Of a stretch of DNA of 30,437 nucleotides, positions 4,107 to 27,077 are shown in pieces. A program made the position numbers and the translations under genes. The notes beneath the pieces were generated by a model. The model searched no databases and was not told the DNA's origin. It saw only the letters and a program-made list of their open reading frames with translations. Within the stretch, counting starts at the first letter, position 1. The number at the start of each line of letters is the position of its first letter. Source of the DNA: a virus; IMG/VR virus record IMGVR_UViG_3300036828_000831, positions 1 to 30,437 of that record. One strand, given 5' to 3'.

Positions 4107-4553
4107 TCAGGGGCTTGTGTAGCAGCGAATAAGGTCGAGGTAGCGGGTACAGGATGTCGTCGTCGCGCGCGGAGCTGGGGGGCCCACAGCGGCTTCTGTG
4201 CGGGCGGCATCCATGATTTGGTGAACCTGAGGCTGGATACGCTTTGCGAGTTGTTCGTCCGTTTCGATCCACGAATAGCGGCCGGTCTGCGCCATGCATT
4301 TTTCTTGCAGGCTGCGCTTTTCGATGTCGACGGGATCGATACCAGTGCCAACCGCAGCCAGACGTGCCAGTTCTGCTGGGTTTGCAAATTTGACCTGTTG
4401 TTCCGCGACCGTTTTGCAACGGGTTTCGTCCGCCAGATATTGATTATGCGGGGCATCGTGCGCCGCCTGCATTTCGGGCGTCCAATAGTGTGGCGCCTCG
4501 ACGCACGCGGCGGCCGTAGCCCACATCAAAAGTACAGCAAAAGCTTGTTGCAT
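4107..4553 (-). CDS. Reverse-strand small exported protein (moron candidate)
   Basis: This 148-aa protein is encoded opposite to all neighbouring tail genes. ATG 4553 is preceded by a very strong SD (GAGAGGGAG), preferred over the longer start at 4607. The N-terminus MQQAFAVLLMWATAAACVEA is a short hydrophobic leader with a Cys at 16, so it may be a signal peptide or a non-canonical lipoprotein signal (A at -3 is not ideal, and no Lys/Arg precedes the core). The mature part is hydrophilic with Cys in RCKTV, EKCMA, TSCTR and IRCYT, consistent with disulfides outside the cytoplasm. It lies divergently from the tape measure gene, with 80 bp between them. A single reverse gene inside a late operon is typical of lysogenic-conversion or exclusion genes; function is inferred only. 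Confidence 0.7.
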   Translation of the reverse strand: MQQAFAVLLMWATAAACVEAPHYWTPEMQAAHDAPHNQYLADETRCKTVAEQQVKFANPAELARLAAVGTGIDPVDIEKRSLQEKCMAQTGRYSWIETDEQLAKRIQPQVHQIMDAARTEAAVGPPAPRATTTSCTRYLDLIRCYTSP

Positions 4554-4568
4554 GGCTCCCTCTCTATC

Positions 4569-4584
4569 CGTCAAAAATTTGACG
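4569..4584. promoter_or_regulatory. Operator-like palindrome
   Basis: CGTCAAA-AA-TTTGACG is a perfect 7-bp inverted repeat around AA. It lies 16-31 nt upstream of the reverse gene's ATG, in the 80-bp divergent gap with the tape measure gene. Its position suggests a repressor site or a short stem in the mRNA leader. I cannot assign promoter boxes with confidence. Confidence 0.55.
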
Positions 4585-4633
4585 CCATCGATACATATGG
4601 GGTGCACGTCGCGAAATTTATAGGCCTTTCGGC

Positions 4634-14114: not shown

Positions 14115-14975
14115 ATGGCAAGGACTCTTTTGATCACGCGCCGCGATTTTATCACCGACCCAGCGGCAAGTTTTTCCGGCGGAAATTGGTTGACGCCCTT
14201 CTCCGTGCTGACCGACCCGAGGCCGCAAACTGTAATGATGGCAAGATCTCCCGCTCCTGACGACACGACATTTACAATAGATCTGGGCGTGCAGCGTACA
14301 GTGGGCCTTTTCCATTTTCAGCGGCTCGGAACAACGCGGTTCGGTTTCTTGCGATTACGCTTTGGCAACGATCCGACGTTTGCGACGACCACATACGACA
14401 GCGGACTTATTACTGCGTGGCCGCGCGATAAGGCGATCGGCGCAAACGATCCGTGGGGCCAATTCTCGCCCGACGGCTTGATTGTCGCCGACGAATATGC
14501 GGCAATGGGATTGCCGAGGTTTCTTATCCCGCCAGCGCCGATAGACGGTCGGTATATCCGCGTTGATATTGAGGATACGACGAATTCGCAGCCGCCGTAT
14601 ATTGGATGTTTTGGTGCGTGTGAAACCTGGTCGCCAATACAATCCCCGGCATTTGGGTGGGGCATTGCCACGGTCGATGAGAGCGATGTGCAAACGGTGC
14701 CTTATGGCTCGCGCTTTATTGTGCCGCGTAGCAAACGCCGGAGATTGTCGCTTGGCTTCAATGCGACGCTTAGCGAGAGCGAAGTTGCGAATATCATTTA
14801 CGGCTGGTGCCTCTTGGTCGGGAAAAGTCGCCCATTCATAATCTCAGTGTTCCCGGACGACACGCCAGCAGTCGAGAAGCGCACCATTTGGGGCACGCTT
14901 TCGCAAGACCCGGAAATCACTAACCCGTACTATGCGCGCTATTCGATGCCGCTGACTTTGGAGCAGCTCGTGTGA
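14115..14975 (+). CDS. Putative tail protein, beta-sandwich/tail-tip type
   Basis: This 286-aa protein is beta-rich with a discoidin-like feel in its N-terminal two thirds: DDTTFTIDLGVQRTVGLFHF, a hydrophobic strand after a Pro-rich loop, then PIDGRYIRVDIED. The C-terminal part (RRRLSLGFNATLSESEVANI, then KRTIWGTLSQDPEI) resembles tail-tip proteins that follow the tape measure gene. It lacks a signal peptide, unlike the next genes. It probably sits at the tail tip and may bind carbohydrate; this is inferred from context. AGGGG lies 13-17 nt upstream of ATG 14115, a rather long spacing. Confidence 0.6.
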   Translation: MARTLLITRRDFITDPAASFSGGNWLTPFSVLTDPRPQTVMMARSPAPDDTTFTIDLGVQRTVGLFHFQRLGTTRFGFLRLRFGNDPTFATTTYDSGLITAWPRDKAIGANDPWGQFSPDGLIVADEYAAMGLPRFLIPPAPIDGRYIRVDIEDTTNSQPPYIGCFGACETWSPIQSPAFGWGIATVDESDVQTVPYGSRFIVPRSKRRRLSLGFNATLSESEVANIIYGWCLLVGKSRPFIISVFPDDTPAVEKRTIWGTLSQDPEITNPYYARYSMPLTLEQLV

Positions 14976-15625
14976 TGTTTAGAACAGTTCTTGCCTTCCT
15001 CCTGGCGCTGTTGCTGTCCGGTGTTGCCGGCGCGCAATCGAGCGGAGGTCGATATTGGAAAATCGGAACCGACAATGCGCACGTGTGGTCGCTTACGGAC
15101 AATGCGCTTGTGGCTAACAGCAATGCCGGTTATTTGGCGTGGCTTGCGGCGGGCAATCGGGTTGCCACGATTGGATCGACGGCCGAATTATATGACGTGC
15201 TGTCGCAATCCTTTTCCACCAATTTGCTGGCTTCGGCGCCCGGGCTCGAAGCGATTGCGCCACTTAATCCTCTGCAATCCTTTTTATGGCGAAGAGGCGT
15301 CGGCGTCGCGATTACCTATACCGGGAACGCCGGACTTAGTGGTCAATATCCGATCGACGATCAATGGCTCGGCGGTTTGATGAGCGGAGCGCTTCTCCGA
15401 TGCGGGACAACGCCGCTTGAGGCATGCTTGTTTCCGATGCCACTGGGCAGTAGTACGTATACCTATTTTGCCATGGGGATGCAGCCCAAGATTATGTCAG
15501 TTGTGCAAATGCGGACAATCGTACTCGGTATTCAGGACTACGTCGCCAACCTTCAGCTGCTATTGGCGGCGGGTTTAACTGGCGGTTCGCCGACATGGCC
15601 CGCTCCTGCGATCACGGTGCCATGA
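14975..15625 (+). CDS. Signal-peptide-bearing tail fibre-associated protein (DUF4376-like)
   Basis: ATG 14975 overlaps the previous stop by one base (TGATG). The 216-aa product starts MFRTVLAFLLALLLSGVAGA and then Q, a classic Sec signal peptide with A-G-A before the cleavage point. The mature part (YWKIGTDNAHVWSLTDNALV, then STAELYDVLSQ) resembles the N-terminal half of phage fibre-assembly or fibre proteins that carry a DUF4376-like domain, which normally have no signal peptide. A Cys pair (LLRCGTTPLEACLF) may form a disulfide. It ends in PAITVP, the same terminal motif as the short modules downstream, and its end sequence GGTGCCATGA recurs at other junctions. Confidence 0.7.
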   Translation: MFRTVLAFLLALLLSGVAGAQSSGGRYWKIGTDNAHVWSLTDNALVANSNAGYLAWLAAGNRVATIGSTAELYDVLSQSFSTNLLASAPGLEAIAPLNPLQSFLWRRGVGVAITYTGNAGLSGQYPIDDQWLGGLMSGALLRCGTTPLEACLFPMPLGSSTYTYFAMGMQPKIMSVVQMRTIVLGIQDYVANLQLLLAAGLTGGSPTWPAPAITVP

Positions 15626-15626
15626 A

Positions 15627-16643
15627 ATGAAAAAGTTTATCAAAATTGCCGGACTCCTGGCTGGGCTAACTATCGCCGCTGCCGCTGTGGCGCAGATCGT
15701 GATCAATCCGCCAGTGCCGGATATCCACATCAATGGCCACACCTACACCAATCAAAACTGGCAACTCAATTCGGCCGCCACGCTAGCGGCGATCGCCAAC
15801 GACGTCGGCCTGATCACGGCTCAGTATCCGCAGGGCCGATTTTCGCCGCGCGTGGTGTTAACCTCGGATATCAGCCTGTATGTTTCGACCGGCGGATCAG
15901 ACGCCAATAATTGCCTGGTCAACAACCCATGCGCCAGCATACAGCGTGCATGGGATCTTTTGCAGGGTGGTTATGATCTTGCGCTTCATACGGCGCACAT
16001 TGAAATCGGGGCTGGAAATTATACGGCCGGGGGTCTGTCGCCATCAGGGTATTTATGGCTAACCGGGGGCATATTGGGGCAGAAAAACGATCAATCTATT
16101 ATTTTCCACGGCAATTCGTCCAATCCGGCGGGTGTAACGCTCACGGGCGGGGCGGGGCTTGCCAATGTGGTTGTAGCGCAAGGAAGTTACGCCACGTTTG
16201 ACGGGGTAAAACTTGTCGGCCCTCCGACAGCGGTTTGTCTGTTTGCAGATCAGGCTGCGCGCATCCTCATTAAAAACGTGGAATTTGGAAGCTGCGGGTA
16301 TCAACTCACCGCCGATTTAGCTGGCGCCATTATCGGCGTTGGACCGATAACCTTTTCCGGCGCCAACATTCAGGGAGCAAGAGCCGGAAATTTTGGATTG
16401 ATTTTTATGAACACGGACTTTGGGGCGACGACAACATTTGCGTCCGGCGCGAGCTATAGCAGCGCGTTCGTAGTTGCCACCGTACTAGGTGCGGTCAATT
16501 GGGTGACGCCATTTACTGGCTCATTTACTGGGGCGCGATATTATGTGGACGGCAATGGAGTTATATACACTGCGGGGCAGGGAGCAAACTATTTTCCCGG
16601 CACCCAGGCCGGGACAACCTACACTGGCGGGCAATATATGTAA
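15627..16643 (+). CDS. Signal-peptide-bearing beta-helix tailspike-like protein
   Basis: The 338-aa product begins MKKFIKIAGLLAGLTIAAAA and continues VAQ: two lysines, a hydrophobic core and A-V-A before the predicted cut. Residues about 75-110 carry the start motif of right-handed beta-helix phage proteins (ISLYVSTGGSDANNCLVNNP, then CASIQRAWDLL). Repeating Gly/Asn/Val strands follow, such as NPAGVTLTGGAGLANVVVAQ. Beta-helix tailspikes bind or cleave host polysaccharide. Cys 93 and 98 lie in NNCLVNNPCAS and could pair. The gene starts one base after the previous stop and ends at TAAGGGAGAT, a junction sequence seen again at 22137. Confidence 0.72.
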   Translation: MKKFIKIAGLLAGLTIAAAAVAQIVINPPVPDIHINGHTYTNQNWQLNSAATLAAIANDVGLITAQYPQGRFSPRVVLTSDISLYVSTGGSDANNCLVNNPCASIQRAWDLLQGGYDLALHTAHIEIGAGNYTAGGLSPSGYLWLTGGILGQKNDQSIIFHGNSSNPAGVTLTGGAGLANVVVAQGSYATFDGVKLVGPPTAVCLFADQAARILIKNVEFGSCGYQLTADLAGAIIGVGPITFSGANIQGARAGNFGLIFMNTDFGATTTFASGASYSSAFVVATVLGAVNWVTPFTGSFTGARYYVDGNGVIYTAGQGANYFPGTQAGTTYTGGQYM

Positions 16644-16655
16644 GGGAGATCCGGT

Positions 16656-17105
16656 GTGGCCCAAAGTACAGTCACTTACGACGGTCACCCAGCAGGCTCG
16701 CTGCCGCTGGACGGCACGGAAGAATTGCCGGCCTGGCAGGGCGGCGCGGCGCGTAAGTTGATCGGGCCGCATTTGCGTCACCTGCGGCTTAACCCGTCGT
16801 CGGTGTTGGCGGCGGGCTCTGATCAGAGCGGCGCTACGGTGCTGTCGGACAGCTACGAAATCCACCGGGTTGGCACCGTGGTAGCCGGTAACGATGGGGT
16901 AAAGTTCGCCGCTCAAGCGGCCGGCATCATTGGGGCGCCGCGGGTCGTCCGATGCGATGAGGCAGCGGCGACCGATCTCCTGCTATACCCGCCGTTGGGC
17001 GGGAAATTAAACGGTCTCGCGGCGAACACGTCGATGACCATCCCGCGTGGCACGGCGGCCTACTTGTTGAACATCTCGACAACCGATTGGATTACAGTGC
17101 CATGA
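16656..17105 (+). CDS. DWITVP module protein, copy 1
   Basis: This 149-aa protein starts at GTG 16656 behind AGGGAGA. It is one of three paralogs. Shared features are LPLDGTEELPAWQ, LRLNPSSV, a Gly-Val strand (AGNDGVKFAAQAAG), VRC, LLLYPPLGG, N-rich turn and the ending ISTTDWITVP. The body resembles the short beta-sandwich domain found in phage structural proteins, with the pattern TVxAGxGVxLxxxAAG...YPxxGGxIN...W. No signal peptide is present. Its stop overlaps the start of the exported protein at 17102 (CCATGA). It probably acts as a fibre adaptor or decoration; this is inferred. Confidence 0.7.
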   Translation: MAQSTVTYDGHPAGSLPLDGTEELPAWQGGAARKLIGPHLRHLRLNPSSVLAAGSDQSGATVLSDSYEIHRVGTVVAGNDGVKFAAQAAGIIGAPRVVRCDEAAATDLLLYPPLGGKLNGLAANTSMTIPRGTAAYLLNISTTDWITVP

Positions 17106-18748
17106 TGGCGAAGTTCCTAGCGGCCGGCATCGCCGGGGTGGTAATCGGCAGCGCCATCCTGGCCATCGCTCAGCAAAACCCGGTGGCTGTGCGGCCGCCG
17201 TTTCCGCTGAATTATCTCGCTAATCAAGGTGCGCACAGTTTCCTATGCAACCCAACTGCAGGGTCGGCTGCATTGCAGGCGTGCGGTCTTTCGAGCGCCT
17301 TTTCGTGGAATGGGTCGACGTTGGATGTAACGAGCGGCGGCGGCGGACCTACGGGATGGCATTATTTGACGCCGTCGGGCGGCGGTGCCGGATCTGATTA
17401 CAATCAAATTCAAACCGCATTGAATACCGGCAACCCGGTAATGCTGAGCGGCGGCGGTTTCGATGTGTGCCAGACGCTCGCCATGAACGTGCCTGGGCAA
17501 CTCTTTGCCGGGGTTGGCGTCAACTGGATAGGCGATTGGGGGTTCCAGCACCCTAATCCAAACACGTGGATTCACTGCGGCGGCAGCGGGTTTACCGGCA
17601 CTGCGTACGTACAAGACAATGCAAATTATTCCGAGATTAGAGGCATCAACGTCATGGGAAGCAGCGGCGATCATGCGGATTGCTTTCAGGTCACTACCCC
17701 CGCTTCCGGCGCTACGTTGAGCAATCTTATGGGCCAGAACTGCGACGGCAATGGAATCCATGTTGTCTCGGATGGCAATGTGTTGGGCGAGGAAAATGCC
17801 TATGGGCGCCTGGGTCAAACTCATATCTTCTACAGTTGGATGGCCAATAACCGAACGCACGGGTTGTTCTTAGACACTGTGAACGGCGGCAATGTTGTCG
17901 ATCCTATAGTCGATTTTTTCAACGCCGGTGCCAATGGTGGCGATGGTATTCGCTTGGGCCTGCATGACGGGGGCCAAATCCAGATCATAAATACGAAAAT
18001 GGATTACAACCTCGGCCGATGCTACACCCAGCTGGCCGAGTCTTACGTCAACATCAATCTAATGATTTGTGACAACAATTACTGCGCCACATATTGTGAG
18101 GAAGGCAACACGCAGTTTTTTATGGCTGGAGGGGCGGAATGGACTCCAATCGTATTGACGAATATGTATTTCATGAACCGCAACGGTACAGTGCCCACGG
18201 CGATCACAATCGATTATCCGTATAACTATCCAGTAAACCTTATTGTGAGCGGGGTATCTAATACAAACCTGCCGGCTCTATTCAAGCTAACGCCCAATAC
18301 GATATTGTTGCCGACCAGTTCGTTGCAAGTGACGGCTTCCACCTCCTATGCTGGGCTATTTGCCGATACTCATACCGCTCAGCAGCTTGAGCCGTTGCTG
18401 GCACTGCAAGGAACGCGGAGTGTTCAGCCGGTCCTAACGGGCGCGACGTTTGGCGCGTGGTCGTTCGCGGGCGGCGTCCGAAGCATCGAATTCAACCTGT
18501 CGACGTCGTGCACGCCTTGCACGATCCCAAGTCCGGCGTTCGTTCCTACCCCGGGTGTTATTTCCGGCCAAATAATCGTCAGACAGAGTGCGTCGGGAAA
18601 CGGAACTGTCAACTGGCCTAGTGATTTCCTCACATCAACGCTGCCGACGCTCAGTACCGCGGCCGGTGCCGCGGATCACATGCCGTTTGTGACCGATGCA
18701 GCAACAGGCAAGATTATTCTCTTTGCGCCGGCGCTCAATGTCCATTAG
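17102..18748 (+). CDS. Signal-peptide-bearing beta-helix receptor-binding protein candidate
   Basis: The 548-aa product starts at ATG 17102, overlapping the previous stop; the longer start (TTG 17087) would disrupt the signal peptide. MMAKFLAAGIAGVVIGSAIL continues to AIAQQ with A-I-A before cleavage. An adaptor follows, VRPPFPLN, a conserved CNPT...QAC Cys pair and WNGST, that is repeated in the protein at 23145. The rest reads as a beta-helix: YSEIRGINVMGSSGDHADCF, MGQNCDGNGIHVVSDGN, and RTHGLFLDTVNGGNVVDPIV. Many Cys occur, in ICDNNYCATYCEEG and SCTPCTIP among others, fitting oxidising surroundings. It is likely a tailspike or depolymerase; the enzyme activity is not shown. Confidence 0.75.
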   Translation: MMAKFLAAGIAGVVIGSAILAIAQQNPVAVRPPFPLNYLANQGAHSFLCNPTAGSAALQACGLSSAFSWNGSTLDVTSGGGGPTGWHYLTPSGGGAGSDYNQIQTALNTGNPVMLSGGGFDVCQTLAMNVPGQLFAGVGVNWIGDWGFQHPNPNTWIHCGGSGFTGTAYVQDNANYSEIRGINVMGSSGDHADCFQVTTPASGATLSNLMGQNCDGNGIHVVSDGNVLGEENAYGRLGQTHIFYSWMANNRTHGLFLDTVNGGNVVDPIVDFFNAGANGGDGIRLGLHDGGQIQIINTKMDYNLGRCYTQLAESYVNINLMICDNNYCATYCEEGNTQFFMAGGAEWTPIVLTNMYFMNRNGTVPTAITIDYPYNYPVNLIVSGVSNTNLPALFKLTPNTILLPTSSLQVTASTSYAGLFADTHTAQQLEPLLALQGTRSVQPVLTGATFGAWSFAGGVRSIEFNLSTSCTPCTIPSPAFVPTPGVISGQIIVRQSASGNGTVNWPSDFLTSTLPTLSTAAGAADHMPFVTDAATGKIILFAPALNVH

Positions 18749-20993
18749 GCTGGCGTTTGCCCTCTGCCTGTTATGGGCAATTGGCGCGCAAGCGCGGGTA
18801 ATCGGACACGGCGCGAACGTCGACCCGCTTCCGGGCGCACAATTAGTTCAGACGTCCACGTTGCAATACACCGGTGGCCCAGTCACGTCGGTTACCGTGA
18901 GCCTGACCAGTGTCGCGGCCGGCAGTTCCATATTGGTGCCGGTAACGTATTGCCGCGACACCTATTGTTCGCCGCCAGGGACCGGCGCGCAGGTGTCGAG
19001 CGTTGCAGGGGCCGGAACTTGTTCGCTTTTGACCGGCCCTTCGCCGGGCACGTTCCCGATCGAAGTATGGAATTGCCCAAATGTGTCGGCCGGTTCACCG
19101 ACGTTGACGGTAACCTTTACCGCCGACGCTTATTACATAAATACTAGAGCGATCGAGGTCGTGGCGGGCGCCGTGCCGGTTGACGCCGGCGTCGCCAATA
19201 ATGTCGGGTATCCCTACGGTGCGCCCGGAGACATGACCATATCGACCGCCGCGCCCGCCACATTTAACGATTTCGTATATTCAATGGTCCGCACGTCCTC
19301 TTACACTCCGGTAAACGGGTGGCCGCAATGGAACTATTTGGCCGGAACCGACTGCGGCTACAGCAATGGCGCGGTTTGTGATATATATAAGGCCGGCGCG
19401 CCGGCTGGGCCGTATACGTTGCTGTGGGGATCTGGCTATAATTCGCCAGTGTACGATGCCGCGATTGTGGCTCTGAAGGGTCCGACAACGTTCCCGGCTG
19501 GAGCGATTTCCTATATCTTGATGAACGATGTTTTACATTTCAATGTCGGAGATCCGGATGGAACGCTGATCTCCCCGATCATTGTACGAAAGAATTTTGG
19601 CGTCTTTACCGGCAATATATCGCTTTCGGACAACGTCCATTTCAAACTTAGTTCGACCACGCTTCCGTCGACTATCTTGCTCAACGGAACTGGCGTAGCG
19701 GGAATTTTCCCGCTTGACGTGGTCGCAACTCAGGCCGGCCTGATAGATTCTCCGAAAACGAAATCTGTAACGGTTTCCGCGGGTGGTATTGGTGTTGTTA
19801 GAACACTAGACGGGTCACCGCTGGTGGTCAATGGCGTTACGAGCGGCAATAAGATGCTGGTGAGAGTTAACGCATGTGGCGACGCATCCTGCGTTTCGCC
19901 GGCTACTGCAACATACGTCACTGGCCTTACTCCATCGGGCATTACTCCTGGCACCTGCGTGCATATACCAAATTCCCACGACAATAGCACCATCACGGTT
20001 GGTGACATTTGGCTTTGCTCGGGGGGGCATGGAGACATAACATATACCGCAGCAATAACTGGAACGCCCTATTACACGACGGTTACCGGAACTGAACTAA
20101 CTAACGCGGGAGCTGTCGAGGCGTTCGCGTCGAATTCAGGCAATACCAGTCCCGCGACGGCGACGACCGGAACATTGAGTGCGGCAGGAGAATTCGTTTA
20201 TTCGCTTCTTTCAATATCGGGCCCTGCCATTCCGCAACAAACCCCATTAAACGCTGGGTGGGGGGGCGGCGAATATCAAATCAGCACAAACACGTCGCCA
20301 GTCACAAACACTTACACTTTTTCTGGAACCACGCCGTGGGTTGAAAAAATTTTCGGCATACCGCTCGCGACAGGCGCTGAGGTTGAGGCCGCGCGCACGG
20401 TGGCTAGTGGCGCCGGCGGTCAAAACAATTCGCCGGCAGTGACGCTAAATGGGGTGGAGGCCGGCAGCAAAGTGCTGGTCAGGATCCATGCCTGCGGCGA
20501 CGCGTCTTGCGCGGCGAACGCGACTGCCGCCACTACCAATAGCGTGACGCCGTCCGGTGCATCGCCTGGCACGTGCTCCCATATCGCTGGGTCAAACGAT
20601 AACAGCTACCTGTATTCGCTTGACCTGTGGTGGTGCACTGGCGGATCTGGGAATATAACCTATACCGGTTCGATGAACGGCACGCCGTACTACACAACCA
20701 TAATGGCTACCGAGTTTCTGAACGCCGGAGTTATCGAGGGATTCGCGTCGAATTCCGGTTCGTCCGGGGCAGGAACCGCCACAACCGGGGCATTAAGCCA
20801 AAGTTCCGGCGAACTCATTTATTCAGCGATCACAAACGGAAATCCGACATTAACGGTTTTAGATGGAGTGGGCGGCTGGGGTGGGTCGGAATTTCAAATC
20901 AACACAAGCCAGGCACCGCAAACAAACACATACACGCCGTTCAATAACGGGCCGTGGGTCGAGAAGATTTTTGCGATCACGCATTCGCCATGA
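18738..20993 (+). CDS. Signal-peptide-bearing three-repeat protein, fibre or adhesin
   Basis: ATG 18738 gives 751 aa; it overlaps the previous gene by 11 bases. MSIRLAFALCLLWAIGAQA and then R is a short Sec signal with A-Q-A. Three diverged domains of about 180-200 aa follow. Each has a double Cys pattern, HACGDASCAANATAATTNS or similar, then SPGTC, W-C, YTG...GTPYYTT and VEKIF. The first repeat (residues about 28-180) is most divergent and has CRDTYCS and EVWNCP. The two later repeats (about 355-550 and 555-751) are close to each other. Cys pairing suggests disulfide-stabilised Ig-like or beta-sandwich domains. I do not recognise a catalytic motif. The function is probably surface binding. 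Confidence 0.75.
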   Translation: MSIRLAFALCLLWAIGAQARVIGHGANVDPLPGAQLVQTSTLQYTGGPVTSVTVSLTSVAAGSSILVPVTYCRDTYCSPPGTGAQVSSVAGAGTCSLLTGPSPGTFPIEVWNCPNVSAGSPTLTVTFTADAYYINTRAIEVVAGAVPVDAGVANNVGYPYGAPGDMTISTAAPATFNDFVYSMVRTSSYTPVNGWPQWNYLAGTDCGYSNGAVCDIYKAGAPAGPYTLLWGSGYNSPVYDAAIVALKGPTTFPAGAISYILMNDVLHFNVGDPDGTLISPIIVRKNFGVFTGNISLSDNVHFKLSSTTLPSTILLNGTGVAGIFPLDVVATQAGLIDSPKTKSVTVSAGGIGVVRTLDGSPLVVNGVTSGNKMLVRVNACGDASCVSPATATYVTGLTPSGITPGTCVHIPNSHDNSTITVGDIWLCSGGHGDITYTAAITGTPYYTTVTGTELTNAGAVEAFASNSGNTSPATATTGTLSAAGEFVYSLLSISGPAIPQQTPLNAGWGGGEYQISTNTSPVTNTYTFSGTTPWVEKIFGIPLATGAEVEAARTVASGAGGQNNSPAVTLNGVEAGSKVLVRIHACGDASCAANATAATTNSVTPSGASPGTCSHIAGSNDNSYLYSLDLWWCTGGSGNITYTGSMNGTPYYTTIMATEFLNAGVIEGFASNSGSSGAGTATTGALSQSSGELIYSAITNGNPTLTVLDGVGGWGGSEFQINTSQAPQTNTYTPFNNGPWVEKIFAITHSP

Positions 20994-21002
20994 GTCCGTG
21001 AC

Positions 21003-22139
21003 GTGCCGTTCGATATTGCGACCTCCTTACTCATTCAGGAGAGTGCCGCCGCAAGCGGCCTAGCACCATACGCAGTGCAGCGGGTCGGGCGGTTCGGCCG
21101 CTTTTCGGATTTCTTCGCGCCCGGCGAAGAGGTGCCCTATGCGGCTGACGATAATGGCGGGCTTGCCGAGTTCGCCATCGGCATCATGGGCGCCGATGGA
21201 ACAATCCTTCGGCCGCCGACGGCAATTTGGAGTTCGCGCGGCGGGTTAGGCGGCGCTTGCATTAACTGGCCGATTGGCCGGCGCTTGATAATCCGGGCCC
21301 TGGTCATCGGCGGCGGCGGCGGCGGGATTACGATCGGCGGCGGCCAAGCTAACATTGCCGGGTTTTGGAACGGCACCGTTCCGGCAAACACCGCGATTGA
21401 GCGGTTTATCTTTACGCAGCCAGCCACGATTTCGGTGGCCTTTACCGCCAGTCGCGCCATCTGCGGCACGCCGGCATCTGGTTCGATCGTGGTTGCAACG
21501 TCTGGCGCCGGGACCGCGAACGCCTCCAGCGCTGCGTCCGCAGTGTCGGCGGTCCTCGCGAGAGGCATGGGCCAGGCCATCGCTATCAGCGGCGCCTCCA
21601 GCGTGTCTGGGCTCATCGGGGCGGCCGGAGCCGCTAGCACAGCGGCAGGCGTATCGGCGGCCATCGAAAGCGCGCCAGGCACGGCCGACGCTACCAGCGC
21701 TGCATCCGGCGCGTCGGCTGCTATCGATAGTTCCGTCGGAGCTGCCGGCGCCAGTAGCACTGCGATCGCCATCTCGCTGGGCGGCTCGTCTGGTGCCGGC
21801 GGTGCGCCGGCAACTTCAACGGCGAATGCTGCCTCGAGGAGCGACGATCGCGCAACGGCAGCCGGCGCCGGCACCTCGACGGCGAGCGCCGCGGCGATCA
21901 GTAGCGCTACCGCCGTGGCATCTGCCGCCGGCACATCAACGGCAAGCGCCACGGCGACGAGCAGCGAGCTTGCGACGGCTACGGCGGCGGCAACGTCGAC
22001 CGCGGTGGGCCACGCCGGCAGCCGCGGTGCGGCAGCGGCGACGAGCGCGGCAGATGGGGTAGCCTTCTTCGTCTTCGTCGACGACGATCTCGGCGCGCAG
22101 CTCGTCGACGAAGCCGGCCGCTTGATAGTGGCGGGGTAA
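21003..22139 (+). CDS. Tail fibre protein with Ala/Ser/Thr-rich repeat shaft
   Basis: The 378-aa product starts at GTG 21003, nine bases after the previous stop, without a clear SD. The N-terminal 150 residues are globular and fibre-like: PPTAIWSSRGGLGGACINWP, IRALVIGGGGGGITIGGGQ and FWNGTVPANTAIERFIFTQP. After ASRAICGTPASG the protein becomes an Ala/Ser/Thr-rich low-complexity shaft with repeats of about 20 residues, ending FFVFVDDDLGAQLVDEAGRL. No signal peptide is visible, unlike its neighbours. The globular part looks like the front half of a known fibre domain whose back half (EVVFTVLKNN...) is in the next gene, so this gene may be one half of a split fibre. Confidence 0.65.
   Translation: MPFDIATSLLIQESAAASGLAPYAVQRVGRFGRFSDFFAPGEEVPYAADDNGGLAEFAIGIMGADGTILRPPTAIWSSRGGLGGACINWPIGRRLIIRALVIGGGGGGITIGGGQANIAGFWNGTVPANTAIERFIFTQPATISVAFTASRAICGTPASGSIVVATSGAGTANASSAASAVSAVLARGMGQAIAISGASSVSGLIGAAGAASTAAGVSAAIESAPGTADATSAASGASAAIDSSVGAAGASSTAIAISLGGSSGAGGAPATSTANAASRSDDRATAAGAGTSTASAAAISSATAVASAAGTSTASATATSSELATATAAATSTAVGHAGSRGAAAATSAADGVAFFVFVDDDLGAQLVDEAGRLIVAG
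21500..22063 (+). repeat. Degenerate repeats encoding Ala/Ser/Thr-rich shaft
   Basis: About 560 bp of GC-rich, imperfect tandem repeats of roughly 60 bp. The clearest pair begins at GCCGGCACCTCGACGGCGAG (21866) and its counterpart at 21929 (GCCGGCACATCAACGGCAAG), followed by near-identical Ala/Ser/Thr codons. Earlier units share GCCGGCGCC and GGC(C/G)ATCG cores. Such arrays are prone to slippage and copy-number change, which would alter shaft length. Confidence 0.65.
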
Positions 22140-22144
22140 GGGAG

Positions 22145-22714
22145 ATGGCAGGCGAGGTTGTCTTTACGGTTCTCAAAAACAACGTCACGCAGATCGGGAC
22201 GTTGACCTTTTCCCCGGGCAACACCGAAGGCGTTTTCGAGTCAGATACGGCGCAGACTTTTGCGGCAGGCGACGTTCTTTCGATCGTTTCCCCGATGGTT
22301 TCCGATGGATCGCTGGCCGATCTGACGTGGACAATCCAGCTTGGCACCGCTACCGGCACCGGCGCTACCTTCTCGACCGGCGCGCCCACGCCGATGCGCG
22401 TCAGCCCCAGCCCGATCACGGCCGCCGGGCACAACCAAGAGAACGCTGCGCCGCTCTCAGACAACTACGACTTTTACGACGTCGCGACGGTTCCCTCGGG
22501 CGCGGGGGTGCGGCTGCTCCGACAGACCTCGGGCGTGATCGGGCAGTGGCGGGCTATCCGCTGCAACGCCGGCACGGCGGACGATTGCCTGGTTTATCCG
22601 CCGGTTGGCGGGCGCATCAACGACGAGATCATGAATCAGGCTATTTTGGTCATGCGCGGCACAACCTTGCTCCTCGCAAATACGTCAACGGTCGATTGGA
22701 TTACGGTCCCGTGA
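22145..22714 (+). CDS. DWITVP module protein, copy 2, with fibre-domain N-terminus
   Basis: The 189-aa product joins two parts. Residues 1-70 (EVVFTVLKNNVTQIGTLTF, then TFAAGDVLSIVSP and SLADLTW) match the back half of a common phage fibre domain with pattern KNGxxxGTxTF...TFAAGDVL...DATLAD. Residues about 85-189 are the paralogous module: LSDNYDFYDVATV, VIGQWRAIRCNAG, DCLVYPPVGGRIND and TSTVDWITVP. ATG 22145 directly abuts AGGGAG of the TAAGGGAGAT junction, so the SD spacing is poor; GGGG at 22133-22136 may serve instead. It has no signal peptide. The next gene starts by GTGA overlap at 22711. Confidence 0.7.
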   Translation: MAGEVVFTVLKNNVTQIGTLTFSPGNTEGVFESDTAQTFAAGDVLSIVSPMVSDGSLADLTWTIQLGTATGTGATFSTGAPTPMRVSPSPITAAGHNQENAAPLSDNYDFYDVATVPSGAGVRLLRQTSGVIGQWRAIRCNAGTADDCLVYPPVGGRINDEIMNQAILVMRGTTLLLANTSTVDWITVP

Positions 22715-23148
22715 GCAAAACCTATCACGATCACCTGGTTGCTGCGCTGCCCCTGGACGGCACGGAGGAAACGCCGCTATGGCAGGCGGCCGGCGCGCAC
22801 AAGGCGCCCCTGGCGGCCCTGAAGCGGCTCAGGATCAATCCTAGCCCCGTATCCGCCTCCGGCGCTAATCAAACCGGCGCCATGCCGCTTTCCGATGCCT
22901 ATGACTTCCACGCAATCGAAACGGTCGAGGCCGGCCAGGGAGTGCGGTTGCAGGTGCAAGCCGCCGGCGTCGTCGGAGAATGGCGCGTGATCCGCTGTGT
23001 CGCCGGAGCCGCCGATGATTGCCTCCTCTACCCACCCGCCGGCGGGTCCATCAATGACCAAATTGATAACGACCCGATCCTGATTATGCGCGGCAACACG
23101 ATGCTTTTGCTCAACACCTCTACTGTGGATTGGGTAACCGTTCCATGA
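22711..23148 (+). CDS. DWVTVP module protein, copy 3
   Basis: GTG 22711 overlaps the previous stop and gives 145 aa. The frame stays open far upstream (to 22327), but the upstream translation is Arg-rich and out of character, so the overlap start is preferred. It is the closest relative of copy 1, with AALPLDGTEETPLWQ, LKRLRINPSPV, MPLSDAYDFHAIETVEAGQG, EWRVIRCVAG, DCLLYPPAGGSIND and NTSTVDWVTVP. It has no signal peptide. Its stop overlaps the start of the exported protein at 23145 (CCATGA), as in copy 1. Function as adaptor or decoration is inferred. Confidence 0.72.
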   Translation: MSKTYHDHLVAALPLDGTEETPLWQAAGAHKAPLAALKRLRINPSPVSASGANQTGAMPLSDAYDFHAIETVEAGQGVRLQVQAAGVVGEWRVIRCVAGAADDCLLYPPAGGSINDQIDNDPILIMRGNTMLLLNTSTVDWVTVP

Positions 23149-26100
23149 CCCGTTATTTTTGGATTGTGCTAGCTATCCTGGTTGCGGCCGGTTCTGCGGT
23201 CGCGCAGCAGCCTATGGGCGGCGTGCGGCCGCCTTTCCCGCTCAACCTGGTCTCGCCGATGCAGTCGCACACCTTTCCGTGCAATCCGACGGGATCGCCG
23301 GCGCCGCCCCAAGAATGTACATTTTCGAACAACGCCCAGTGGAACGGCTCTACGGTGACAATTGCCGGCGGGTCGGGATCGCCTAGCATCACCGGGGCCT
23401 ATACGCTGACTGGTGATTCCGGCCCGCAGTGCTACACGTTTACCAGCGGAGTGCTGCAGTCCATCGTCGACGGCGCTTGCGGGGCGCCATCACAGACGAT
23501 TGCGTCGATTTCCCCAACAGCCTGCACCTTCACCTCAGGCATTGCGAACGGCGACCTTAATTCATGCGCGTTTTCGGTAACAATGAGCCCGAGTTCGCCG
23601 GCCTCCACCGCGGCCCTGTCGCTGACTGGCACGAACACCGGTGGCTTTCACCTCTCCGGCTCAGGATGCACCAATATTTCGCTCGGCGTTTGCAAGATGC
23701 AGCAGAGCGCGTCCGGCACCGCAGCCAATGTTTACACCGACGTTTCCGTCATCGCTGCCCAGCCCGGCATTACCGGCTCTGTCTCTCAGCAGCTCACTCT
23801 GACCGGCACCGAGGCGGGTCCCCCAGGCTCACAGGTGACGACCGCCACCTGGACGAATCACAGCGGCATCGCTCTAGCGGTGGGCTCGCCCATTTCCGGT
23901 GCACAGCCGTTCCGCTACAGCGACATTCCGGTAGGCCATCACCCACGCATTCAGGACGCCGTCACCCACGTTGCGCAGTCTCAACAATGGGATGAAATAG
24001 CCACCTGGAACGAGAATTTTGCCGCGTGGAACGGGCAAATTTCCGGGACCACGATGACGGTCAATTCGATTTCGTCGGGGCGCATCGCCATCGGGACCGG
24101 CGTCACCGGGGCGAATGTCGCGCCCAATACTTTCGTCATAGCGCTCGGCACCGCCACGGGCGGGACGGGAACCTATATCGTCAATAACTCTCAGTCGATC
24201 GCCGCCGAGGGCATGAGTTACGCCAACGACGGCTCATGGCGGCATGGGGTATGGACGATTTTGCTGCCCGTCGCCGTTCAGGCTGGGGCGTCCTACCAGA
24301 TCGAATTCACCGACGATCCGACGCCGTATTCGGCTGGGTCGGGGCCGGCGCTGAGCACGCTATGCTCTGGCGGGAACGCGCACGACCTCAAGATCCACCT
24401 GACGAACATCCGCAACCAGGATCTTTCGGTTCGCAAGACCGGTGACGCGACCTTCAGCTTTTGCACCGCGGTCTCGAACACCGGGCGGGACGCGCCGCGC
24501 ACCCTGCAGAACGGCGTGGTGGCGGCGATGTACGAGCTGCGCGGCAATTTCGTTTACACCGACGCGACGCAAGATCCGCTGCTGTACGCGCGCTGTCCAG
24601 TGAAGCTCTACACGACGGGCGACGTCGAATGGACGTGCCAGATTTACAACAGCTGGATGAACGTAGCCGCGGGCAGCGCCGGGAATTCGGGTAACCCCGG
24701 CCCTGTCGGGCTCACGAACGATCCGCAGGTGGTAACCTACCATCCCGAGATCGATGACGGCGCAACCAAGGTGTTGGCTTGGGATAACCTATCGTGGACC
24801 GTCGCTAGCTCGAGCAACCCGATCGTTCAGACCGGGGCTGGGCAGCACGCTACAGTCGGATGCGGGGAAGATTTCAGCGGCTACCTCGCGAATTGTTTCT
24901 TCAACGCCGCCTCGACGGGGACAGATGCGTGGTATTACGGGCAGGCCCTATGGGTAACGAGCACCGGAACGCCGCCGGGCGGCCTTGCTGCCAATAACCT
25001 CTACTGGGTGTATAATTCGAGTTCGGACAATTGGGGTAATGGGCCGGTAGACAGCTTTCTTCCCGGTGATACGACCCACTTCACGATGGGCAATTCGCCG
25101 AACCCATCAAATCATCCGGCTGCGGCGCTGACGAGTAGCCAGGGCAGCGGCACGACGACGTTCCAATACATGATTTGGCACCCCGTCCGCATGTCGTGGA
25201 CGACTGTTGACGCGACCACGGACGAAAATTGGGCACCTGCGGGTGGCGGCGCGACCCGCACGACGCGCCCCGTCTATCCGGGGTTGACCGCGCCGGAAAA
25301 GTTCTATTGGGAACAGACCGGGGTTGTTACCCCTATCACCAGCAATCAGCCGTCTCGCGCGATCTCATCAATTCGGTATGACCTTGGCCTCGATGGCAAT
25401 TATCATGCGATGGGCCGGAACAACGTTATAGGCGAAATCGGTGGCGCCAAGCGCCCGGATCTTGGCTTTCCGAACGAGTTCGGATCTTATTGTTGGGCGG
25501 TTCAGACGCTCGCCGCGTGCCGCGTGGCTCGGGTATTCAGCCTGTCGGCTTCAATGTATCCGATACGCTCCTTGCTCAACGAGGCAACGGGCAGCATCCC
25601 AGCGATAAACAATGGGCCGCCAACCGGACCTGGCGGCAATGGGGTTGGCGGCTCTTATTCTCAGCTAGGCGCTCCGATGCCGAGCACCGTCGTAAACAAG
25701 GCCGCTAATGTTGTCGCGCCACTAGAAGGCGTGCCGTCCTCTATTATGAGCAATTGGGAAAGTGGCGTTTTCGCTTCAACCGGCGGCACCTATATTTCAC
25801 ACGAGCCGAACTTCCCCGGTTTCACCTTTGCGATGTGGGGATGGCGCGGCTATCTCGACTTGCTGTGGCAAGAGACGAACGGAATCTTTTCGGTCATCGA
25901 CACCTATGCGTCGACGTCCGGCTTGGGTTTCGAGGGGGTGCGCAATATTCAGAGCAATGGCAATCTCCAGACCGGTCCGGTTTACGCCGCCGTGATGGTC
26001 AATTGCTGCCAGAACCGCGGGTCGGCCCGGATGCTATGGAACGATACGCTTGCTGCGGCGCTTGGCGCTGACGGCAATATCGAGCGCCAATACTTCCGCG

Positions 26101-27077
26101 ACATGCAAATCGAGAACGATAATTACGACACAGGCTACGAGCAATATCGGAACGGGACCAACTCCAATTTCACGGTGGGGATCAATCCTCCGAACACGCC
26201 GACTGGCGGGGGAACCGGCGGGGCGAATGCGCCGACCGGGCAGGATATGTTCATCATCAATTATGTTTTCTCTGCCGCATATATGATGGCGACTCTTCAA
26301 CATCAGCCGATGGGCAGGAAATGGCTGAGCAAGACAGCGCAGATAATTGAGGGCATCGTTGGCGCGCAGCTTCCTGGCATTAGCTTCAACGGCACCGTGA
26401 CTGGCTCTATATCTGACTTTTATTCGGTGGATTTTTCAAACAATTGGTCATTACACAATGGCGGCGCTGACTTCCGATTCGGCAATATTGGGCAATATAT
26501 GAACGGGGTTGATGCGACGGATTTTGCCGGGTTTTGCTGTTTCGCGAGCTTCAGCGGCAACGTATGGAATTTAGCATCTGGTGGTTGGGTGCAAACGGCT
26601 GGTGATACGGTCAAATTGATCAACGGGGCATGGTTCGCTGGCGCTTTCCTGCTGGACGAGCTGCAGGGGGACACGTTCTATTCGATCGTCCCGACAGCCA
26701 CTCCGTCAGATGGGCATTTCACAATTATCTGCCCCGCTGGACATGCAGTCACGGCGGGATGTCCGACGCCAGGTTCGGCCTTTACATCGTATCATCGCAG
26801 TGGCACTTTGATCCCGAGCGAAGGTGGTGAGGCGCTTATCGATCGCCCACAGTTTACGCCCGAGACCGCTGCGGGCTCAGACTACAACGACCCAAGCTAT
26901 ACCTGGGAAGCTGGCGAGATGGTAACGGCGATGCAGGTGCTAGGCGGGATCGCGCCGCACGCGCTTACCAACCACAACCTGCGCACCGGCTGCCCGACAC
27001 GGAACTGCTCAAATCAGTCGTACGAGAATTGGGATCCGACGGTGACGGTGCCGGGGGTAACGGGTACGATCCCATAG
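23145..27077 (+). CDS. Very large signal-peptide-bearing receptor-binding/depolymerase candidate
   Basis: ATG 23145 gives 1310 aa. The N-terminus MTRYFWIVLAILVAAGSAVA and QQ is a Sec signal with A-V-A. Next comes the same adaptor as in the protein at 17102 (VRPPFPLN, FPCNPT, QEC, WNGST). Residues about 85-230 are beta-rich and Cys-rich; about 230-600 look like a carbohydrate-binding or structural region; the C-terminal half has helical repeats with HEPNFPGFTFAMWGWRGYLD, SAAYMMATLQHQPMGRKWLS and QYFRDMQIENDNYDTGYEQY. This resembles phage proteins of an alpha/alpha-toroid type, a fold used by polysaccharide lyases; that assignment is from memory and is tentative. No catalytic residues are assigned. 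It is the last + strand gene, ending in GTIP. Confidence 0.72.
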   Translation: MTRYFWIVLAILVAAGSAVAQQPMGGVRPPFPLNLVSPMQSHTFPCNPTGSPAPPQECTFSNNAQWNGSTVTIAGGSGSPSITGAYTLTGDSGPQCYTFTSGVLQSIVDGACGAPSQTIASISPTACTFTSGIANGDLNSCAFSVTMSPSSPASTAALSLTGTNTGGFHLSGSGCTNISLGVCKMQQSASGTAANVYTDVSVIAAQPGITGSVSQQLTLTGTEAGPPGSQVTTATWTNHSGIALAVGSPISGAQPFRYSDIPVGHHPRIQDAVTHVAQSQQWDEIATWNENFAAWNGQISGTTMTVNSISSGRIAIGTGVTGANVAPNTFVIALGTATGGTGTYIVNNSQSIAAEGMSYANDGSWRHGVWTILLPVAVQAGASYQIEFTDDPTPYSAGSGPALSTLCSGGNAHDLKIHLTNIRNQDLSVRKTGDATFSFCTAVSNTGRDAPRTLQNGVVAAMYELRGNFVYTDATQDPLLYARCPVKLYTTGDVEWTCQIYNSWMNVAAGSAGNSGNPGPVGLTNDPQVVTYHPEIDDGATKVLAWDNLSWTVASSSNPIVQTGAGQHATVGCGEDFSGYLANCFFNAASTGTDAWYYGQALWVTSTGTPPGGLAANNLYWVYNSSSDNWGNGPVDSFLPGDTTHFTMGNSPNPSNHPAAALTSSQGSGTTTFQYMIWHPVRMSWTTVDATTDENWAPAGGGATRTTRPVYPGLTAPEKFYWEQTGVVTPITSNQPSRAISSIRYDLGLDGNYHAMGRNNVIGEIGGAKRPDLGFPNEFGSYCWAVQTLAACRVARVFSLSASMYPIRSLLNEATGSIPAINNGPPTGPGGNGVGGSYSQLGAPMPSTVVNKAANVVAPLEGVPSSIMSNWESGVFASTGGTYISHEPNFPGFTFAMWGWRGYLDLLWQETNGIFSVIDTYASTSGLGFEGVRNIQSNGNLQTGPVYAAVMVNCCQNRGSARMLWNDTLAAALGADGNIERQYFRDMQIENDNYDTGYEQYRNGTNSNFTVGINPPNTPTGGGTGGANAPTGQDMFIINYVFSAAYMMATLQHQPMGRKWLSKTAQIIEGIVGAQLPGISFNGTVTGSISDFYSVDFSNNWSLHNGGADFRFGNIGQYMNGVDATDFAGFCCFASFSGNVWNLASGGWVQTAGDTVKLINGAWFAGAFLLDELQGDTFYSIVPTATPSDGHFTIICPAGHAVTAGCPTPGSAFTSYHRSGTLIPSEGGEALIDRPQFTPETAAGSDYNDPSYTWEAGEMVTAMQVLGGIAPHALTNHNLRTGCPTRNCSNQSYENWDPTVTVPGVTGTIP

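Follow-up and report, generated by a model that had tools for sequence, protein, structure and literature searches.

Five putative fibre-type proteins with predicted Sec leaders at the tail-fibre end of a viral tail module

So far as is known, phage tail assembly takes place in the cytoplasm, and the tail fibres and tailspikes, which set the host range, are thought to be built there too. The premise of the first-pass annotation of this DNA, that phage tail proteins normally carry no signal peptides, held in the tail genes examined for lambda, Azospirillum Cd and five others (AP1, ppBjS10J-1, Venkman, CRP-7 and ct2G2228), where no leader was detected. Phage DGR target proteins have no signal peptides either, according to a paper on DGRs (PMC6199706). 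The closest described systems are of other kinds. Secreted and SAR endolysins, such as Lys44 of fOg44, are phage proteins that go through Sec before lysis (PMC6116005). Lambda Lom, encoded between tail-fibre genes, carries a signal peptide (PMC12309495), and among bacterial enzymes, Pantoea WceF is exported and has a tailspike-like beta-helix fold (PMC7949094). In the open-licence papers searched, no report of leader-bearing tail-fibre blocks was found.

In the window, by which the whole 30,437-base virus record analysed here is meant, five genes encoding putative Sec preproteins close the tail module on its tail-fibre side, a place also taken by tailspike and fibre genes (Table 1; genes are named by their start positions). 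Opposite-strand genes come after this region. The genes from 14115 to 27077 overlap or are spaced by at most 12 nt, stop-start overlaps are present, and promoter and terminator matches in this stretch occur at chance level, with no excess. Such packing would fit genes co-expressed with the tail, rather than a lysogen gene expressed on its own. This bears on the possibility that the five are conversion genes of the Lom type, which would change the host surface, or block it, and so keep out superinfecting phages. The lambda precedent and the location of the five genes in the fibre region are in keeping with it, and fibre-type domains could bind the same receptor. However, the overlapping genes leave scant room for promoters of their own and the predicted fold of 15627 is that of a spike rather than an outer-membrane barrel, so that this explanation appears improbable. 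Lysogen expression, one of three options offered by the first-pass annotation, seems disfavoured by the short gaps, the stop-start overlaps and the lack of promoter or terminator excess. The tail tube of the window has its kin in Azospirillum phage Cd, EBPR siphovirus 3, viral contigs and Alphaproteobacteria prophages, those of Rhodoplanes, Xanthobacter, Mesorhizobium and Azospirillum among them. On the Rhodoplanes elegans contig NZ_NHSK01000074.1 a prophage is apparently present twice (L040 and L041), with about 63 kb between the copies and equal tail tube scores. Elsewhere in the window, three small membrane and coiled-coil genes are found between the tail tube and the tail chaperones (2233-2992, +); two of them look paralogous, and the first matches a hol-like chemotaxis PHROG. 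A 166-aa antisense ORF (4107-4607, -), with MQQAFAVLLMWATAAAC near its start, is situated between a tail chaperone and the tape measure; it is perhaps an envelope protein, although the leader scorer described below gave no hit in it.

Table 1. Features of the tail module and the five-leader region (positions in the window; a slash marks the predicted cut)
Feature	Position	Strand	Length	Remarks
Tail tube	start 158			phrog_290
Tail chaperones	starts 3078, 3641			
Tape measure	start 4634			
Two tail-region proteins	starts 12176, 14115			5' of the five-leader region; the second is listed in the next row
Upstream tail protein	14115..14975	+		phrog_8610; opens the packed stretch
Preprotein 1	14975..15625	+	216 aa	mature part 2 Cys
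Preprotein 1, predicted leader	14975-15034		20 aa	MFRTVLAFLLALLLSGVAGA/QSS, AGA/Q
Preprotein 2	15627..16643	+	338 aa	mature part 4 Cys; predicted tailspike-type beta-helix
Preprotein 2, predicted leader	15627-15692		22 aa	MKKFIKIAGLLAGLTIAAAAVA/QIV, AVA/Q
Preprotein 2, fibre domain (predicted beta-helix)	~15840-16640			
Small protein without leader	16656..17105	+		paralogue of 22711 and of the 22145 C-terminal part; ends STTDWITVP
Preprotein 3	17102..18748	+	548 aa	mature part 12 Cys; start overlaps the 16656 stop
Preprotein 3, predicted leader	17102-17170		23 aa	MMAKFLAAGIAGVVIGSAILAIA/QQN, AIA/Q
Preprotein 4	18738..20993	+	751 aa	mature part 14 Cys
Preprotein 4, predicted leader	18738-18794		19 aa	MSIRLAFALCLLWAIGAQA/RVI, AQA/R
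Ala/Ser/Thr-rich protein without leader	21003..22139	+	378 aa	
Fibre-type protein without leader	22145..22714	+		phrog_7049 tail fiber hit (E 1e-5) in its N-terminal part
Small protein without leader	22711..23148	+		16656 paralogue; adjoins 23145 upstream, stop and start overlapping
Preprotein 5	23145..27077	+	1310 aa	mature part 24 Cys
Preprotein 5, predicted leader	23145-23204		20 aa	MTRYFWIVLAILVAAGSAVA/QQP, AVA/Q

Leader detection was performed with a home-made, rule-based scorer for Sec/signal peptidase I leaders, calibrated on E. coli K-12 (2 x 50 kb) and lambda. High scorers across the 100 kb of E. coli K-12 were exported or membrane proteins (OmpA 11.6, PotD 10.8, CsgI 10.5), and the hits included no cytoplasmic protein; in lambda, only Lom, Rz and Bor scored high and the best tail protein reached 7.3. 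The five preproteins score 10.9-11.9, at the level of OmpA, and a six-frame scan of the window found 10 of 814 start codons with at least 10.9, all of them alternative starts of the five preprotein genes. All five ORFs with the starts given in the first-pass annotation were confirmed in the sequence. The scores bore out the Sec leaders that it had assigned to these ORFs, and the A-X-A motifs that it read before the cut (AGA, AVA, AIA, AQA and AVA) are present in all five. Each leader has the positive n-region and short hydrophobic core that, with the A-X-A site, characterise Sec leaders cut by signal peptidase I. When the first 30 residues are shuffled, 0-5% of the shuffles score as high as the real sequence, which makes the leaders of 17102 and 15627 less striking when taken singly. 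A Tat twin-arginine or lipobox motif is absent from all five leaders, and a lipoprotein reading was ruled out on sequence. The possibility that the five are lysis proteins (endolysin, spanin) was also rejected, none of them having a Pfam, PHROG or NCBIfam lysis family. As had been claimed, no signal was scored in 16656, 21003, 22145 or 22711. The 'five in a row' of the first-pass annotation should accordingly be read as five of nine genes in one region, with the four leaderless ones interleaved. At the level of sequence, export of the five proteins is well supported.

Export means that a protein folds where disulfides form, so that an even number of cysteines is expected, and the parity of cysteine counts is a test independent of the leader sequence. 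The mature parts of the five proteins hold even numbers of cysteines (5/5), often in close pairs. Cysteine makes up 1.83% of these mature parts, compared with 0.39% in ten tail proteins of the window that lack a leader (Fisher p=2e-10; p=0.0014 once the Cys-free tape measure is omitted), in line with the earlier description of mature parts rich in paired Cys. When the proteins of the window were combined with L069, a prophage, and with the neighbourhoods of beta-helix fibres, 18 of 21 leader-bearing proteins had an even count, versus 36 of 75 leaderless fibres. In the set of proteins with the PTAxQWNxYF module described below the proportion was 27/31, and for the leader-bearing sets combined it was 44/51, against the same 36/75. 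Because the sequences within sets are related, the p-values for parity are too small, and the parity evidence is strong, though below what those values say. Counting against the reading preferred here, the beta-helix spike of the viral contig L096 and the L069 protein have few cysteines (2 and 1, respectively).

Of the two preproteins modelled, 15627 and 17102, the mature part of 15627 was predicted by AlphaFold to be a right-handed beta-helix (pLDDT 89.5), while a single-sequence structure model of 17102 had a pLDDT of 36. Foldseek matched the 15627 model to viral proteins, among them one of Acidovorax phage ACP17. In VIA-align the top match was a glycoside hydrolase (Z 19.4), and the Staphylococcus phage Andhra tail protein (Z 18.7) and the periplasmic depolymerase VexL (Z 15.2) were also matched. 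The nearest structures are phage tailspikes and polysaccharide lyases, alginate and pectate lyases included. The earlier claim that the mature parts resemble beta-helix tailspikes or fibres is thus backed by a predicted fold for 15627, whereas 14975, 17102, 18738 and 23145 are candidate fibre proteins on the strength of position, composition and weak matches. Searches of Pfam and NCBIfam gave no significant family for any of the five preproteins. Directly after the leader, 17102 and 23145 share an N-module (VRPPFPLN...CNPT...WNGST) with 42% identity; exact patterns and tblastn found zero close relatives of these two proteins and their N-modules among viral contigs and phages. The matches of 23145 elsewhere are confined to a short repeated domain. 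A short domain of 23145 (phrog_21413, residues ~293-355) also ends a baseplate protein in L248 and occurs in several copies in a 6731-aa ORF of genome G342 (L202, L205, L207). Protein 18738 contains two clear repeats with cysteines at equivalent positions (380/385/407/427 and 586/591/613/633) and a divergent first copy (72/77/95/113); a search without positive control gave zero matches to it among 297 genomes of one family. A profile search with the small paralogues 16656 and 22711 yielded three weak matches only, two of them in DUF2793-like prophage fibres.

Homologues of 15627 were found in 40 of 392 genomes of one family. In the 30 examined, the homologous region is mostly the C-terminal domain of leaderless fibres starting MTDTxxLxLPFIEGSQAQKHVTHNEALRILD, which we take, from this N-terminal motif alone, to be DUF2793. 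These fibres of Alphaproteobacteria prophages share with 15627 the C-terminal beta-helix domain (30-40% identity), but they begin with the DUF2793-like module and no leader, whereas 15627 has its leader there instead; no N-terminal DUF2793 module or any Pfam family was found in it. One of the 30, the prophage protein of L069, begins MKLFARLLAAALALALASSSFA/QTNPG in place of the DUF2793 motif. A leader-like start recognised by eye, MRYLDRILIAINLFFLLSSTADA/QTNPG, is also found between baseplate genes of L248 (3964-4920, +). Relatives of 15627 are encoded by 239 stretches of viral contigs, and in one of the 80 examined (L096) the beta-helix protein itself carries a strong leader. A leader in place of DUF2793 or another ordinary fibre N-terminus is seen in the window, in L069 and in L096. 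Eight of the 80 loci hold 13 leader-bearing fibre-region genes of at least 180 aa, the L096 beta-helix gene among them, after exclusion of three matches resembling an outer-membrane protein, an endolysin and a tail-tip protein. L096 has three consecutive leader-bearing genes, and another virus (L099) encodes seven or eight consecutive leader-bearing proteins, in some of which the leader precedes fibre repeats of the GGTGAATFTAHG type. Some of the leader-bearing genes at these viral loci match families that PHROG annotates as tail fiber or as EPS depolymerase. In the fibre regions of the tail-tube relatives, no leader was detected on any recognisable tail fibre. Purely local gain of the leaders, which the first-pass annotation had raised, is disfavoured, because leaders recur on other fibres in other viruses, despite their absence from the nearest tail-tube relatives.

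Further evidence came from a fibre N-module (SPNLxxGQVPTAAQWNSYFAAK) on other viruses. A scan with PTAxQWNxYF found it on 47 viral contigs, and it was absent from 279 genomes of one class. In 38 of the 47 contigs a leader scoring at least 9 ends directly before the module, as in L134, where the leader is followed by QSNPGFVTGQVPTATQWNSYFSAKQ; six further contigs have a leader by eye, which brings the total to about 44/47. Sequence identity is 74% within the module and 25% within the preceding 18 residues, which are still leader-like. In L250, L246 and L235 the protein starts with Met and the module, without a leader. Leaderless L250 is found at the same locus as leader-bearing L249 and both match PHROG tail-spike families, so that the leader seems to be optional on apparently one and the same spike. 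The N-termini of the five might also stay uncleaved and serve in the virion as a hydrophobic anchor or trimer nucleus; some other tail proteins (for example L105) begin with hydrophobic Gly/Ala-rich segments. Contrary to this, the five have A-X-A sites without exception and short hydrophobic cores, the leaders diverge yet remain leaders, and cysteine parity points to export, which makes an uncleaved N-terminus very improbable. The modules also bear on whether the five proteins act free of the virion, as secreted depolymerases or adhesins stored in the periplasm, released at lysis and cutting or coating the glycans of neighbours or debris. Several points would fit such free action: 15627 is without the DUF2793 anchor present in many relatives, its predicted beta-helix is near alginate/pectate lyases and VexL, one leader-bearing relative matches an EPS depolymerase PHROG, and WceF demonstrates that an exported bacterial enzyme can have a tailspike fold (PMC7949094). 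The conserved modules after the leader (VRPPFPLN and PTAxQWNxYF) and the leaderless twin spike suggest docking instead, and free action as the sole role is somewhat less likely.

We consider it probable, at roughly 0.6, that the five proteins are fibre- or spike-type Sec preproteins that acquire disulfide bonds in the periplasm and are set free when the cell lyses. Among the three options of the first-pass annotation, export of disulfide-bonded fibres is the best supported, by the leaders, the parity, the 15627 fold and the recurrence. The preproteins would be made along with the tail genes, presumably late; each would cross the inner membrane and lose its leader to signal peptidase I, and the mature proteins would fold with disulfide bonds in the periplasm. 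Their release at lysis is suggested by the tail-operon position together with a Sec route that ends in the periplasm. Their subsequent docking on virions, upon lysis or later, is a guess; it is the most likely outcome, with free action nearly as likely. Docking is favoured because the module at the mature N-terminus of leader-bearing spikes elsewhere also opens a leaderless spike that another phage encodes at the same locus. Against it, cytoplasmic tail assembly means that an exported fibre could meet virions only after lysis. The recurrence of such leaders in dozens of uncultured phages suggests that in some phages host-recognition proteins reach their mature form outside the cytoplasm. It can be put forward only tentatively that a broad class of tailed phages exports fibres or spikes via Sec, locks them with disulfides in the periplasm and adds them to finished virions at or after lysis. 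If this were true, receptor-binding parts would be assembled outside the producing cell, and part of virion assembly, or of the attack on surface sugars, would use the host export and disulfide machinery. Leader cleavage, Dsb dependence and post-lysis docking are predicted by it. The recognition of fibre genes in metagenomes would also change, because annotators may mistake leader-bearing fibres for host genes.

In comparison with the known systems, 15627 shares its predicted beta-helix fold with the tailspikes of cyanophage Pam1 (Z 17.3), Acinetobacter phage Fri1 (gp49, Z 16.2) and CBA120 (TSP2, Z 15.2), and its placement at the end of the tail module with phage beta-helix tailspikes. It differs from them in having a Sec/signal peptidase I leader and Cys pairs and no recognised virion anchor domain. 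WceF resembles 15627 in being exported with a tailspike-like fold, but it is the product of a bacterial exopolysaccharide gene, has a Tat signal and is encoded outside phage operons. Secreted and SAR endolysins have in common with the five proteins a passage through Sec, whereas they are muralytic enzymes, unrelated in sequence and gene place. Finally, Lom, like the five genes, is a signal-peptide gene inside a phage tail-fibre region; in contrast to them, it is a single outer-membrane barrel, made by the lysogen and not fibre-like.
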